From Candidatus Vecturithrix granuli (GTDB lineage Bacteria; Moduliflexota; Moduliflexia; Moduliflexales; Moduliflexaceae), in the NCBI GenBank assembly GCA_000739535.1, contig DF820463.1, forward strand, positions 237,554 to 301,553: a stretch of 64,000 nt of DNA, given 5' to 3'. This document shows, piece by piece, positions 1 to 43,559 of this stretch (positions are counted from its first letter, which is position 1; each line of letters opens with the position of its first letter). The position numbers and the translations under genes are program-made. Below the pieces are notes generated by a model. It saw only the letters and a list, made by a program, of their open reading frames with translations. It was not told where the DNA came from and ran no database searches.

Positions 1-38
1 GCTCTGCTTTCGCTGTCAAAGCAGAGCTTTGACACTCC
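1..38. repeat. Partial copy of the 49-bp double-hairpin repeat
   Basis: The left edge cuts into one copy of the element seen complete at 13579-13755, 38542-38590 and 42007-42055. Visible here are the second half of the first hairpin, the trinucleotide CTG, the second hairpin TCAAAGCAGAGCTTTGA (16-32) and the closing hexamer CACTCC (33-38). It lies upstream of the hydrolase gene. Confidence 0.85.
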
Positions 39-211
39 TGTTCACCTCTCTCGAAATGCCCGTTGCATGGACTTTTAAAACAGCTTCTAAGTCCTTATCA
101 ATAAATTTCTTTCACTATTTTTTTCTTGACAACCTCTGGTTTTATGAGTGTTGGAGTAAAATAGCGCTGAATTGGAACTGCTTTTTTGTCCGAGAAAGAA
201 AGGATTACTTT

Positions 212-13578: not shown

Positions 13579-13755
13579 GGAGTGTCAAAGCTCTGCTTTG
13601 ACAGCGAAAGCAGAGCTTTCGCACTCCTGCATAGTATCCTTTGGAGTGTCAAAGCTCTGCTTTGACAGCGAAAGCAGAGCTTTCGCACTCCTGCATAATA
13701 TCATTTGGAGTGTCAAAGCTCTGCTTTGACGGCGAAAGCAGAGCTTTCGCACTCC
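13579..13755. repeat. Three tandem copies of the 49-bp double-hairpin repeat
   Basis: Copies lie at 13579-13627, 13643-13691 and 13707-13755, an exact 64-bp period with 15-bp AT-rich spacers. Each has an outer stem GGAGTG/CACTCC around two perfect hairpins, TCAAAGCTCTGCTTTGA and CGAAAGCAGAGCTTTCG, joined by CAG (CGG in the third copy). The two arms are also largely complementary to each other, so a single long hairpin is the alternative fold. The third copy overlaps the end of the methyltransferase gene. Confidence 0.95.
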
Positions 13756-14789
13756 TGCGGTCTCAAGCTGCCAAATTCATAAGCCGCTTCAAGCATTGTG
13801 TTGATGTTCTCTTCTGGAATGCAATAGGGCATTCCCATTGTTCCGAATACGAACTTCCCCCCCGGCATCCCGGCCTCAAGAATTCGTTTGACCTCACACC
13901 GGATCTCGTCGTGTGACCAATCAATGAGCTTGAGATCATTCAGGATGCCGACGGTTAAAGCTCGTCCGGCGATAATGCGCTTGCCCTCAACAACATCGTC
14001 GAAGGGACTCAGGTTATATGCGGTTATTCCTGTTCTTTCGATCACTACATCGAGCACCGCATTCATGCGTGACGTGCCGCAATAATAGACCAATCCCTCT
14101 GCGCCAACCGCGTTGACGTCCTTTTCAATCCAGGGCAGCGCGTGTTCCCGAAAAAACTTCAGCGGAATTGTATCGGTCGAGCCAAAGGGATTTGAATACA
14201 CCAGCGCATCGGCGCCGGCCTTGCGATAGGCGGCCATTTCTCGCGTAAAAAATTCATGGCACTTTGACAACAATTCATCGCGCAAATCCGGCGGCCCCCA
14301 CAACAGTAATTCCAACCATTTCTCCATGCCCATCAACAGAACTGGCAGCGTCATGGAAGATGTGATGTAGGCTACAATCGAATATTTCCCACCGACTTCA
14401 GCTTTCAAGAGGCGCAGACAGGTTAGTTCTTCCTGGAAAGCCGGGTGATCGATGATATTGTCAGGAATCTGGAGTTTGGGAATATCCTCATAGCTCTTGA
14501 TCACAAAATCTTGCACATTGGGAGGGCCGTCTTGGGCGAAGAGAATCTTACGGCATCCTAACAGTTCAGCTTCCTTCCCAACATAAAAAAGACTCCAGAC
14601 ATTGTCGTATCCGTATTTTTCCCGCATACGGATTTGCCCTTCAGCGACATATTCCCCTTTTGCATAATATTCCTGAAGCGACATCCCCAGTTCTTTAGCT
14701 CCCTGATCCACCAGATTACAGAAGACAGGGATGCGATCCAATATTTCCCCTTTGATCGCAGCATTCAGCCGTTCTATTCCAGTGATCAT
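13713..14789 (-). CDS. Uroporphyrinogen-decarboxylase-fold corrinoid methyltransferase (MtaA-like)
   Basis: 358 residues of the UroD/MtaA family, whose methyltransferase members move a methyl group between a corrinoid protein and a thiol or tetrahydrofolate. The N-terminus (M-I-T-G-I-E-R-L-N-A-A-I-K-G) is typical. The family zinc motif H-x-C...C appears changed: Y235-Y236-C237 with C323 in P-Y-C-I-P, so the usual His is Tyr. Start ATG 14789 has AGGAGGTG and overlaps the corrinoid-protein stop by ATGA, so the two are co-translated partners. The last residues (E-C-E-S-S-A-F-A-V-K-A-E-L) and the stop are encoded by the third copy of the 49-bp repeat, which has replaced or extended the natural C-terminus. 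It could be an O-demethylase component; the substrate is unknown. Confidence 0.82.
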   Translation of the reverse strand: MITGIERLNAAIKGEILDRIPVFCNLVDQGAKELGMSLQEYYAKGEYVAEGQIRMREKYGYDNVWSLFYVGKEAELLGCRKILFAQDGPPNVQDFVIKSYEDIPKLQIPDNIIDHPAFQEELTCLRLLKAEVGGKYSIVAYITSSMTLPVLLMGMEKWLELLLWGPPDLRDELLSKCHEFFTREMAAYRKAGADALVYSNPFGSTDTIPLKFFREHALPWIEKDVNAVGAEGLVYYCGTSRMNAVLDVVIERTGITAYNLSPFDDVVEGKRIIAGRALTVGILNDLKLIDWSHDEIRCEVKRILEAGMPGGKFVFGTMGMPYCIPEENINTMLEAAYEFGSLRPQECESSAFAVKAEL

Positions 14790-38153: not shown

Positions 38154-38537
38154 ATGCACTCCGCATGTATGAATATTAAAGTTTCCCATGCGATCCATAA
38201 AAAAGAGCTTTTACTGCAATACCAGGAACAGAAGCAAAAAGAGCGTCAATTGCAGGAAACCGCCTTACAAGAAGCACAACGTCTGGCGCTCATGTTAGTG
38301 GAACAATTTGGCATTGAGCGGGTGTATCTGGTTGGCCCGTTGGCATACAACAAGTTTACGGCCGGCATGAAACTTGAATTGGCGTTAGAAGGCATTCCGA
38401 CAGGAACTTACGCCAGTGCATTGGGGTATCTAAAACAGAGTTCGACCTTTGAGCTAGATCTCATTGACCTCCAACAGGCCGATACCTGGACTAAACTCGC
38501 GCTCAAAGAAAAAGGCAAGCTCCTGGCAAAAAAATAA
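38154..38537 (+). CDS. Degenerate nucleotidyltransferase-fold (MNT-like) protein
   Basis: About 127 residues, or 122 from ATG 38169. After an N-terminal coiled coil (Q-E-Q-K-Q-K-E-R-Q-L) the C-terminal part has the strand pattern of small MNT nucleotidyltransferases (G-I-E-R-V-Y-L-V-G-P-L, then F-E-L-D-L-I-D-L at the end). The catalytic G-S...D-x-D is replaced by G-P...K-L-E-L-A-L, so transfer activity is doubtful. It follows the kinase pair closely and could be a regulatory remnant. Identification is tentative. Confidence 0.5.
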   Translation: MHSACMNIKVSHAIHKKELLLQYQEQKQKERQLQETALQEAQRLALMLVEQFGIERVYLVGPLAYNKFTAGMKLELALEGIPTGTYASALGYLKQSSTFELDLIDLQQADTWTKLALKEKGKLLAKK

Positions 38538-38541
38538 TCCT

Positions 38542-38590
38542 GGAGTGCGAAAGCTCTGCTTTCGCTGCAAAAGCAGAGCTTTTGCACTCC
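38542..38590. repeat. 49-bp double-hairpin repeat, compensatory variant
   Basis: GGAGTG, hairpin CGAAAGCTCTGCTTTCG, CTG, hairpin CAAAAGCAGAGCTTTTG, CACTCC. Relative to the other copies both hairpins have changed bases on both arms, keeping pairing. It sits between two convergent genes, where a terminator would be expected. Confidence 0.95.
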
Positions 38591-38604: not shown

Positions 38605-40272
38605 TTATTTTTTCCAGAACCGCAGCCTTCGTTTGAGCCGCCGCCAGGAAACTAACAACGAACACTGCCATTGTGCCAATTGATAGACCCAATCGGCGTC
38701 AGGAACACCATAATATTTCATGCTTCCCGGACAGCATTTATTGAGCAAGACGACGTCATACATCCGGGCATAGCGGGAACGCCAGGGACGCGCGCGGGTA
38801 CAATCAATCATCCTGATTTGATCGTCATGCAGCAGAAAATTTTTGACGTGCGGATCGCGGTGAACCCATCCTTGCTGGTGTAATGTCCGCAACATCGCCG
38901 CAATACGCTCGACCTCGGCGCATGTGCAGGGCTGTCCTTCAAGATATTGATAGACGCTCCAGGAAGCCATGACAAACCCGAAACGTTTCTTTTCCAGGAT
39001 AAACACCGGCTGCGGCACAGGCAAACCTGAAGTGTGCAACCTCTCCATATTTCGTAAGGTTCTCTCGCCTTCTCCGGCTCGGTACCAGCTCGTGAATTGC
39101 GCCCACCAGCGTTTTTCCTGGGTTAACGACCGTTTCACAATAAACTGTTGCCCTGAATGTCGAATCAGAAACACTTCCCCGCGATTATGCGATTGGAGCA
39201 CGATTTTCGGTCTGGCGAGAAAACCGGCGACGTCCGCAAGCGTCTGAAACGTATCTTGCCACGCCGGAAAAATGTGTAAACGCCAACCAGGCTCTCTGTC
39301 AAAAAATGGCATGTTGACGACAGGCTGTTGTTTCGGTTTGTCTTGAAATTCGGAAATGATGACAGGTGGTTCTTTGACAAAATCAGAATGGTACATAAAC
39401 GTAGAAGGCGGTGCTGAGCGGATAAACTGCTGCTGATGCTTTTGCAATCGAAATTGCGTCCGTTGCAAGACGGCATAAAACAGTTCTCGGAGCGTTCTGG
39501 TTTCTTTGGTGTAGGTATTGAGGTAGTATTTAAGAAATCTCAGCCGATCAGGTGTGGTCAACAGACGCAGATCAAGAAAATTCCGTCCCAACTCATCCAG
39601 ATTTTTGATACGGCGTCGCTCTGAAATCCAACGCGTCGAACGCACAGCATCAAGATCAATAAGATAAACGCGCCATTGTTCGCCGCATCGCGCAAGCAGA
39701 ATATTATTCGCTGTCAAATCGCCATGATACGCGCCTGCCAGATGAAGTTTACCCAAAAATTCGGCCACACTGCGGATGAGTGCGCGTTTCAGAGCTATGG
39801 GATTATCCCCTTCCTGAAAGTACGAAGAAAGATATTTTTTTTCTGGCGCAAACTGCCAATATTCTCGGAGCGAAAGGCCGCCGGCAACGCCCTGTGTGAT
39901 TAAAAGATATTCTCCTGAACGCCATGAGGTTCGGCAGTGTAAGAAAGCGACAGGCTGCGGGGTTAGGATACCTTTGCGCAAAAGAATTCGGGCAATCCGC
40001 CAGGATTTTTGCGCTTTATGTGCTTGAAAAAGAGCCTGAATCGTTGGTTTCAGATTGTTGATGAGGTAGCGTTTGATATACACCTCGCCGGAATTCAGCT
40101 TGAGGCAATAGACTGCCCGGTCAGAATACTTCGTCAAGGGCGCATGAACATCCCGATCAGACGCCAAAAATGCTTGCAATTGCACTCGAAAGTCCGGAAC
40201 GTTCCATATTTCCAGCAGATACCCCGAATAGCCTGCAAGCGTCACTGGTTGAAAGAACTCAGGCATCCTCAT
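38605..40272 (-). CDS. Tandem LPS-kinase-like protein (two WaaP/InaA kinase domains)
   Basis: 555 residues with two eukaryotic-type kinase folds of the Kdo/WaaP class. First domain: K67 (V-Y-I-K-R-Y), catalytic loop Y-H183-G-D185-L-T-A-N-N190, metal site I-D206-L-D208. Second: K380 (F-I-V-K-R-S), H471-R-D473-P-H-V-K-N478, M-I-D490. Both sets look complete. WaaP-type kinases phosphorylate heptose or Kdo of the LPS core. Its ATG lies 14 bases inside the end of the MsbA gene, so the two envelope proteins are co-translated. The fusion of two such domains is unusual. Confidence 0.82.
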   Translation of the reverse strand: MRMPEFFQPVTLAGYSGYLLEIWNVPDFRVQLQAFLASDRDVHAPLTKYSDRAVYCLKLNSGEVYIKRYLINNLKPTIQALFQAHKAQKSWRIARILLRKGILTPQPVAFLHCRTSWRSGEYLLITQGVAGGLSLREYWQFAPEKKYLSSYFQEGDNPIALKRALIRSVAEFLGKLHLAGAYHGDLTANNILLARCGEQWRVYLIDLDAVRSTRWISERRRIKNLDELGRNFLDLRLLTTPDRLRFLKYYLNTYTKETRTLRELFYAVLQRTQFRLQKHQQQFIRSAPPSTFMYHSDFVKEPPVIISEFQDKPKQQPVVNMPFFDREPGWRLHIFPAWQDTFQTLADVAGFLARPKIVLQSHNRGEVFLIRHSGQQFIVKRSLTQEKRWWAQFTSWYRAGEGERTLRNMERLHTSGLPVPQPVFILEKKRFGFVMASWSVYQYLEGQPCTCAEVERIAAMLRTLHQQGWVHRDPHVKNFLLHDDQIRMIDCTRARPWRSRYARMYDVVLLNKCCPGSMKYYGVPDADWVYQLAQWQCSLLVSWRRLKRRLRFWKK

Positions 40273-41992
40273 TATTACTCAGCATCTGGGTTTCATATAA
40301 GCGGGTGTAAACGCCGCCCTGGCTCAGTAATTCCTGGTGCGTGCCGCTTTCAAAAATCCTGCCGCAATCGAGCACAATGATATTTTCCGCTTTTTTGATG
40401 GTTGATAAGCGGTGGGCAATCACCAGCGTGGTGCGATCCTGCATCAGGTTCGCAATCGCGATTTGCACCAGTCGTTCCGACTCCGAATCCAGCGAAGAGG
40501 TCGCTTCATCGAGGATGATGATGGGCGGGTTTTTCAAAATCGCCCTGGCAATCGCCAGCCGTTGCCGCTGCCCGCCGGATAAACGCATCCCATGTTCGCC
40601 AATGACTGTCTGATAGCCTTCAGGCAAATTTTCGATAAATTCATGGGCATTGGCGACTTTGGCGGCCTGAATGATCTCTTCCTCAGAATAGTATTTTGCG
40701 CCGTAAGCGATATTATTGGCGACCGTATCGTTAAACAAAATCACATCCTGTGTCACAATGCCGATTTGCTTGCGCAGCGAGGCAAAGGTGACCTCGCGGA
40801 TGTTTGTCCCATCAATAAAGATATCGCCGGCGGTCGGGTCATAAAATCGGGGCAATAGGCTGAGCAAGGTGGTTTTCCCCGCGCCACTCAAACCGACAAA
40901 GGCGGTGACATGCCCAACCGCTGCCGTAAAATTAATGTTGTGTAAGATGACCTCATCATCATATTGAAACGACACGTCTTTATAGGTGATACAATCTTTA
41001 ATCGGCAACAATTCAATAGCATCGGGAGCTTCAATGACATCGGGCTGCATGTCGAGAACCGCGAAGACACGTTCGGCCGCCGCCACCGCTTGTTGAATTT
41101 TCAGATTGAACTTGCTGATACGTTTCAAGGGTTCGTACAGCATCAATAAGGCGGTGATAAACGTCGCAAAAGTGCCAGGCGTCGTAATCCCCTGAGTCAC
41201 TTCGTAGCCCCCATACCAAATCACGCCCGCAATCCCCACGCCTCCCAGAATTTCTGAAAGTGAAGAATTGACAGCGCGGATGCGCACGGCGTACAGCGAG
41301 GTCTGAAAATAATCCTGAAGAACGTGGAAAAATCGCTCAATCTCAATTTGTTCTGCGCTAAAGGCTTTGACAATGCGGATGCCGGAAATTTTTTCATATA
41401 ACAGATTGTTGATGTCAGCCATTTTTACCTGTAACGTGTGACTATTCTTCTTGATCTTCCGGCCAAAATAGGCCACCAGCGCCACCGCTAACGGCAGAAT
41501 CACCAATGAAATGATCGCTAACTTCCAGTGATGATAAAAGACCACAACTAATAACGCCAGTGCCGTCACAACGCTGCGAATGGCGTCTGCAATAACTGTT
41601 GCCACGGCCGTTTGAAGTAAATTCACATCATTCGTAATTCTTGACACCAGTGTTCCGCTTTGCGTGTGAGAGAAAAATTTGAGCGAAAGGGTCTGGATAT
41701 GGCGGTAGATCTCATCGCGCAGGTGTAACACGACCTTTTGACCGACATATTCAATAGAATAATCCTGACCATAAGAGGCCAGTCCTTTGATCGTAATTAA
41801 CACCAGAACGATCAGCGGGATATACACCAGCATGGTCTGATCTTTTTCCACAAAAATGCCATCAACCACTTTTTTGACCAGCGAGGCTGATAAGCCTGTC
41901 GATCCTCCGGCAACGGCTGCGCACAATAAGGACAGAACGATTGTTGCAATATAAGGCCTGGTATAGGTTAAAAGTCGTTTATAAACTTCCAT
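40259..41992 (-). CDS. msbA: MsbA-type ABC exporter (lipid A/lipid flippase)
   Basis: 577 residues: a six-helix ABC_membrane domain (about 1-310) fused to an ABC ATPase with Walker A G-L-S-G-A-G-K-T-T-L, signature L-S-G-G-Q and Walker B I-I-I-L-D-E-A-T-S-S. A half-transporter acting as homodimer in the inner membrane, flipping lipid A-core or another lipid. Coupling to the LPS-kinase gene supports the lipid A role, but a general multidrug/lipid exporter cannot be ruled out. Confidence 0.85.
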   Translation of the reverse strand: MEVYKRLLTYTRPYIATIVLSLLCAAVAGGSTGLSASLVKKVVDGIFVEKDQTMLVYIPLIVLVLITIKGLASYGQDYSIEYVGQKVVLHLRDEIYRHIQTLSLKFFSHTQSGTLVSRITNDVNLLQTAVATVIADAIRSVVTALALLVVVFYHHWKLAIISLVILPLAVALVAYFGRKIKKNSHTLQVKMADINNLLYEKISGIRIVKAFSAEQIEIERFFHVLQDYFQTSLYAVRIRAVNSSLSEILGGVGIAGVIWYGGYEVTQGITTPGTFATFITALLMLYEPLKRISKFNLKIQQAVAAAERVFAVLDMQPDVIEAPDAIELLPIKDCITYKDVSFQYDDEVILHNINFTAAVGHVTAFVGLSGAGKTTLLSLLPRFYDPTAGDIFIDGTNIREVTFASLRKQIGIVTQDVILFNDTVANNIAYGAKYYSEEEIIQAAKVANAHEFIENLPEGYQTVIGEHGMRLSGGQRQRLAIARAILKNPPIIILDEATSSLDSESERLVQIAIANLMQDRTTLVIAHRLSTIKKAENIIVLDCGRIFESGTHQELLSQGGVYTRLYETQMLSNNEDA

Positions 41993-42006: not shown

Positions 42007-42055
42007 GGAGTGTCAAAGCTCTGCTTTGACTGCGAAAGCAGAGCTTTCGCACTCC
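42007..42055. repeat. 49-bp double-hairpin repeat
   Basis: GGAGTG, TCAAAGCTCTGCTTTGA, CTG, CGAAAGCAGAGCTTTCG, CACTCC; identical to the tandem copies except for the middle trinucleotide. It lies between isochorismatase and msbA on the minus strand. A degraded half copy may lie at 43466-43485. Confidence 0.95.
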
Positions 42056-42059
42056 TCAA

Positions 42060-42620
42060 TTATTCAGGTTTTTTCAGGATGAGTAACGCCTCTTCCACGC
42101 TCAGCACGTTGGCATACGTGGAAGCAAGAGCCGCCAGAAATGCGCCGTGAACCTGTCTGGCCGGGATCATTTCGCTCTGGAAAGACAGCGAACGAGTTGC
42201 ACAGGCGTCATGAACTACCAGGCATTCAAATCCGTAATCAAAGGCGGCGCGTGTTGTGGCTTCGACACATATATGGGTCATCATGCCGCAAAGAACAAGC
42301 CGCGTAATCTGTTTCTGCTGCAAATATTCCAATAGGCAGGTTTCTCGAAAACTGTTCGGATAATGTTTTTGAATCATAAGTTCATCCGCCAACGGTTGAA
42401 CATGCGAATGAATCTTGACTCCTTCGGTCTCAGGCAGAAAAAACGCTGCTCCGGGGCGAACGGAAATATGTTGAATATGAACAACAGGCAATTGCTGCTC
42501 CCGGAAGTAGGTTAACATCTGTTGAGCCTGAAGACTGGCTTCAACACTCCCTTCCAATTCCATTTTGCCATTTGGAAAATAATCATTCTGAATATCAATA
42601 AGAATAAGCGCTGTTTTCAT
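42060..42620 (-). CDS. Isochorismatase-family cysteine hydrolase
   Basis: 186 residues. The catalytic triad is visible: Asp in L-I-D-I-Q-N-D-Y-F, Lys in I-Q-K-H-Y-P-N-S-F and Cys in M-M-T-H-I-C-V-E-A-T. The family includes nicotinamidase, isochorismatase and various amide hydrolases; the short Y-P-N-S-F loop and lack of extra domains suggest a YcaC/EntB-like hydrolase of unknown substrate. No signal peptide. Confidence 0.88.
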   Translation of the reverse strand: MKTALILIDIQNDYFPNGKMELEGSVEASLQAQQMLTYFREQQLPVVHIQHISVRPGAAFFLPETEGVKIHSHVQPLADELMIQKHYPNSFRETCLLEYLQQKQITRLVLCGMMTHICVEATTRAAFDYGFECLVVHDACATRSLSFQSEMIPARQVHGAFLAALASTYANVLSVEEALLILKKPE

Positions 42621-43405: not shown

Positions 43406-43559
43406 ACTTCTCCATCGGCTCTTACAGCATCATTCAGTTCAGTTGACCTTCCTCTGCCAAAGCCAAAGATGAACTTTGACACTCCTCTGTCCCATCTGTC
43501 TGAACTGACGTTTTTCATCAAGACTTTTTTTCATAGATTACTCATATTCATAAGTTTCA

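Follow-up and report, generated by a model that had tools for sequence, protein, structure and literature searches.

The 49-bp element that recurs in the window (the whole stretch of 64,000 nucleotides analysed here) consists of two REPs placed tail to tail, that is, it is a REPIN or BIME. The sequence data point, with a probability of about 0.9, to a REPIN made of GGAGT-tagged REPs that would be a non-autonomous miniature element mobilised by a cognate RAYT (TnpA-REP) encoded at C18:825665-826207 of the same genome. The literature on REPs, REPINs, RAYTs and REPtrons is extensive and gives tags of the GTAG/GTGG, CGTC (no transposase) or CnGA (class 3) type (PMC2817692, PMC3116915, PMC3733652, PMC6006769, PMC8266576). 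The element belongs to this known kind, a REPIN family with its RAYT; new are the non-canonical GGAG guide and the natural variation of the tag within the RAYT clade. With this family, RAYT/REPIN systems reach into a bacterial lineage that has been little sampled, and the tag is one unreported in the open-access text examined: in the main text of that literature, GGAG is present only within longer REPs, such as GTAGGAG, and not as a tag. The tetranucleotide at the 5′ foot of the hairpin is GGAG(T) and not the canonical GT[AG]G. However, the classification that treats GT[AG]G as canonical also admits as REPs the repeats of subclass 2.6 and class 3 that lack it (PMC6006769). Therefore, the GGAG tag only bars the name "canonical GT[AG]G REP", not membership in the wider REP kind.

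Each half of the element is a REP composed of the tag GGAGT and a perfect 8-bp hairpin, usually with the loop TCT, and the full 49 bp read as GGAGT, an 8-bp hairpin with a 3-nt loop (TCT), any nucleotide, an 8-bp hairpin with a 3-nt loop (AGA), and ACTCC. The original prediction had divided the repeat into GGAGTG, hairpin, trinucleotide, hairpin and CACTCC. The two hairpins stand, but the linker is 1 nt rather than 3, because the G at position 6 pairs with the C at position 24. The five full copies and one edge copy reported earlier were re-located at the same positions. Three of them form a tandem array with a spacing of 64 bp (13579..13627, a TC-type REP plus a CG-type REP; 13643..13691; 13707..13755). 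The copy at 42007..42055, also of TC/CG type, lies between the ORFs 40259-41992 (-) and 42060-42620 (-), and the copy at 38542..38590, with stem types CG and CA and every pair formed, lies between the convergent ORFs 38154-38537 (+) and 38605-40272 (-). A truncated copy occupies the window edge (1..38). The copy at 38542 had been said to carry paired changes in both hairpins; its stems are indeed intact, but the description of both hairpins as changed holds in one orientation only. On the minus strand, one hairpin is of the common CG type and the other differs by the change of TC..GA to CA..TG, with 4 substitutions in all. The 358-aa ORF 13713-14789 (-) overlaps the third copy of the array with its 3′ end and has its stop codon inside that REPIN; therefore, the REPIN may have altered the end of the protein. 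A weak, diverged single unit, GGAGTGTCAAAGTTCATCTTTGGC, at 43462-43485 (-) of the window is possibly a REP relic or a chance match.

In the genome of Candidatus Vecturithrix granuli (8,384,694 bases, or 8.38 Mb, in 21 contigs), the strict double (49-bp) pattern is present in 107 copies and the exact half-unit, GGAGTGNNAAAGCNNNGCTTT, in 395 copies, which is on average one exact unit per 21 kb. Both numbers exceed the 100 copies of a short palindrome per genome by which REPs are recognised. The same patterns read backwards had 0 matches genome-wide, and these controls rule out a chance origin of the repeat. Runs of N start inside REPINs, several of them in a MITE (for example, G000:C20:657015, C20:691670 and C19:152393); therefore, the copy numbers are lower bounds. 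Further counts are based on a sample of 1.86 Mb (about 22% of the genome: contig C20 in full, 600 kb from C19, the window, and some shorter stretches), from which 231 units were gathered with no requirement for pairing at the variable positions. Neighbouring units in this sample are arranged tail to tail in 83 cases, versus 8 head to head and 30 direct, and a 1-nt gap, found in 58 of the 83, is the commonest arrangement. The inverted doublet is the main form (162/231 units are paired), and about a third of the units lie outside close tail-to-tail pairs. All 8 stem pairs are intact in 75% of paired versus 62% of unpaired units, a modest gap in the direction expected if singlets were less conserved than doublets. 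As expected for REPs and REPINs, the location is extragenic: only 36 of 146 units lie in ORFs, although ORFs, called mechanically, make up 85.5% of the sequence (p=4e-61). Two REPINs lie within long ORFs (1039 aa and 1207 aa) and leave the frame unbroken (G000:C20:803493 and G000:C19:256138).

Selection on the folded form, proposed earlier from the copies in the window, is supported by strong genome-wide covariation within the single hairpin. Watson-Crick pairs are formed in 205/231 units at positions 7:23 (shuffle mean 127, max 145), in 208/231 at 8:22 (mean 91, max 114) and in 208/231 at 13:17 (mean 159, max 171). When the partner is slid by 1-3 columns, pairing falls from 93% to 4-32%, and changes on both sides number 195 cells in the true register versus 2-9 in the slid ones. 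Uncompensated stem changes genome-wide would speak against such selection; for the units in pairs this is not what is seen, 92-100% of them being base-paired at each position. These shuffles and slid registers concern one genome, and the statistics ignore the kinship of copies. There are only seven intact stem types, accounting for 164/231 units; therefore, independent events were few, and the covariation, which is seen among founder types and not over hundreds of events, may reflect a few founder events. Compensatory changes in REPINs have been reported before (PMC3116915).

It had also been proposed that the copies fold either as two hairpins or as one long hairpin. For DNA as for RNA, folding prediction assigns the minimum energy to the single long hairpin. 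However, the variable dinucleotides match across its arms in 18 of 76 doublets, compared with 23.7 expected by shuffling. The long hairpin is therefore rejected as the selected form despite its lowest energy, and the conserved form is the single hairpin. As variation preserves the single hairpins and not the long one, it points to a single-stranded DNA substrate of a RAYT rather than to RNA, which narrows the earlier suggestion of a form folded in RNA or DNA.

The genome contains 12 loci encoding a Y1_Tnp (IS200-like) transposase. One of them, a 181-aa gene at G000:C18:825665-826207 (L034:1423-1968), encodes a Y1 HuH transposase of the RAYT type: it matches PF01797 and the NCBIfam model NF047646 REP_Tyr_transpos (94.5 bits, cutoff 80), and it is homologous to PDB 4ER8 (TnpA-REP, E=4.5e-9), the positions of HuH (HYH), Tyr115 and Asn119 being conserved. 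Six fully intact REPs, or eight if mismatches are allowed, are present on both sides of this ORF within about 0.3 kb. None of the other 11 Y1_Tnp loci has a REP of the same family nearby. The search for a REP-associated transposase (TnpA-REP/RAYT) recommended earlier thus led to a RAYT flanked by the element's own REPs, and the two together constitute a REPtron.

That the RAYT binds and cleaves these REPs, that transposition proceeds through a single strand and that the system is active at present are inferences from sequence comparison. Where a strand is single, for example in the lagging-strand template, each REP would fold its own hairpin, and the RAYT would bind the hairpin together with the GGAG tag, the latter serving as the guide that selects the cleavage site. 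The catalytic Tyr would then attack, and the strand would be excised or joined elsewhere. Such a mechanism would explain the covariation, because any change of the stem letters would be tolerated that leaves the hairpin able to form. The junctions were studied in 183 distinct flanks, all of them from copies outside the MITE. C occupies position -2 relative to the tag in 67% of these flanks, against about 24% expected, and G occupies position -1 in 1%; farther out, the composition is closer to background. The cleavage sites of described RAYTs are CT alone or both CT and CA, and replacement of GTAG by GTGG redirects cleavage to CC (PMC8266576). Under this rule, a GGAG guide is therefore predicted to select CC and CT. 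The dinucleotide CA, found at 42/183 flanks, is unexplained by the rule.

Some REPINs reside in another repeat, a 127-bp IS5-type MITE with 18-bp terminal repeats, AGAAGCTGTTTTAAAAGT, which has 81 termini genome-wide. Every complete 127-bp copy sampled carries a REP inside (window 1-88; G000:C19:69397-69523; others), so that one mobile element sits within another. In the window, part of this MITE extends over 1..88, including the edge REPIN, with the terminal inverted repeat ACTTTTAAAACAGCTTCT at 71-88. The MITE's terminal repeats are also found on an 859-bp IS5-type element encoding a 261-aa DDE transposase (DDE_Tnp_1) at G000:C21:930755-931613 (L214:1256-2114), which is its probable parent. 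With a REPIN inside, 81 termini and a full candidate parent, this MITE could in principle have spread the repeat passively, with no part for the RAYT. We consider this scarcely credible, since the MITE holds only 14 of the 81 sampled REPINs (about 17%) and is rejected as sole carrier. The flanks of singles, of tandem arrays and of most other copies are unrelated, and the MITE does not account for the REPs on both sides of a RAYT. The 49-bp element is itself no IS5-type MITE; the terminal repeats are true only of its 127-bp carrier.

Retention of the hairpins for a function in RNA, as terminators or stabilisers of mRNA 3′ ends, with their spread being secondary, also appears very unlikely. The RNA fold of the unit is very stable (-31.5 kcal/mol, z -7.1), the REPIN at 38542 lies between convergent genes, and convergent gaps show a slight excess of units (odds ratio 1.5). 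However, this excess falls short of significance (p=0.11), and T tracts are rare, at least 5 T being present in the first 8 bases of only 12/134 flanks; on these grounds the terminator reading was rejected. Moreover, variation fails to preserve the long hairpin predicted as the RNA fold, and an RNA function leaves unexplained the GGAGT tag, the association with the RAYT and the preferred C at -2. The Rfam 15 covariance models have no match in the window, and none of the present results requires an RNA role. Roles as a site for gyrase, IHF or DNA Pol I, or in chromosome structure, have been published for enterobacterial REP/BIME (PMC6006769, PMC2817692), and the doublet form is compatible with a site for another such DNA-binding protein or with a structural cruciform. 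None of the present tests favours such a role. It would be a use acquired later by a mobile repeat and no rival account of the repeat's origin, and as an explanation of the element it is highly improbable.

The element resembles several characterised systems. The REPINs of Pseudomonas fluorescens SBW25 (Bertels and Rainey 2011, PMC3116915) likewise have two inverted REPs per unit, are extragenic, number in the hundreds, form tandem clusters, show compensatory changes and have a cognate RAYT; their singlets are more decayed than their doublets, as may also be the case here. In contrast to the GTGG/GTAG-tagged SBW25 REPINs, the present ones have the tag GGAGT, a 1-nt linker and variation that preserves the single hairpins rather than the long one. 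The Stenotrophomonas REPtron Sm (group 3 TnpA-REP, PMC8266576) shares the perfect 8-bp palindrome, the 3-nt loop, the adjacent tag and a RAYT flanked by REPs, but its tag is GTAG and its RAYT belongs to a different group. In E. coli, inverted REP pairs also flank the gene for a homologous TnpA-REP (PDB 4ER8), with which the 181-aa RAYT has in common HuH, Tyr115, Asn119, W94 and R104. However, the E. coli REPs have a bulge and a GTAG tag, whereas the stems here are perfect, and the guide-contact positions align as Q95 to W, E100 to D and H101 to Y. TnpA-Y1 subclass 2.8 (Quentin et al. 2018, PMC6006769) is similar in its HYH and Y---NP motifs, and in the proline-rich HHPPH with which relatives of the 181-aa RAYT begin; this is a likeness by motifs and not a formal assignment, and the published members of this subclass are cyanobacterial and have GT[AG]G REPs.

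The double pattern is absent from 39 other genomes searched, of which one shares the family and two share the order, and a scan of GTDB contigs added a single locus, in an Anaerolineales MAG. RAYTs 56-70% identical to the 181-aa protein are encoded in genomes related to the Anaerolineales genome, while no such RAYT is found in three same-family or same-order genomes. This suggests a transfer of the RAYT between distant bacteria. The REPs adjacent to three of the related genes (L175, L177 and L178) read GGAGTCCAAAGC-TT-GCTTTGG or GGAGTGCAAAAGC-ATCTT-GCTTTTGC, with the tag GGAGT and the stem CAAAGC/GCTTTG or CAAAAGC/GCTTTTG, and L176 has GGAGTCCAAAGCC doublets. One compensated change is present within L175 (CCAAAGC..GCTTTGG and CCAGAGC..GCTCTGG). 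In the Anaerolineales genome G040, the RAYT is flanked by a different GGAGT hairpin; therefore, no RAYT matching the AAAGC-type REPs of G040 was found in that genome. Among 32 RAYT loci, the density of GGAGT hairpins is 1.24 per kb up to 350 bp from the gene versus 0.20 per kb beyond, and that of GTAG hairpins is 1.05 versus 0.08 per kb, contrasts that are blurred by approximate gene bounds at some loci.

The tags occurring in this RAYT clade are GGAGT, GGA[CT]T and GTAGT. Related RAYTs thus have differing tags, GTAGT in L195, L196 and L198 versus GGAGT in L034, L175-L178 and L184, and the presumed tag-reading residues differ too: the three loci with repeated GTAGT hairpins share the loop WxRYSDRAIR, and at GGA-tag loci the corresponding loop is mostly Wx[NQS]YWD[TYR]C. 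Tentatively, and with the odds somewhat against it, the guide tag may have switched among GTAGT, GGAGT and GGA[CT]T in this clade, with the guide-reading loop changing along and GGAG picking other cleavage dinucleotides. If true, the guide and its reader would amount to a code that can be both read and switched, in which a GGAG guide selects CC/CT, CA being also seen. The three GTAG loci seem to belong to a single lineage; therefore, the pairing of tag and loop is a lead and not a demonstrated code. Natural tag variants accompanied by transposase variants make the reading of the guide by RAYTs and their choice of cleavage site directly testable.

Other GGAGTG hairpins are present in the same genome. 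A second RAYT, an internally deleted remnant at G000:C4:50242-50523 (L082, L216), is flanked by a second such hairpin family, GGAGTGCGACGCGGTCGTCGC, of which the genome contains 25 exact copies. Yet another GGAGTG hairpin, GGAGTGCGATGAGGTCATCGC, at L026:3187-3207 (-), near the Y1_Tnp gene at G000:C19:63997, perhaps represents a third REP family.
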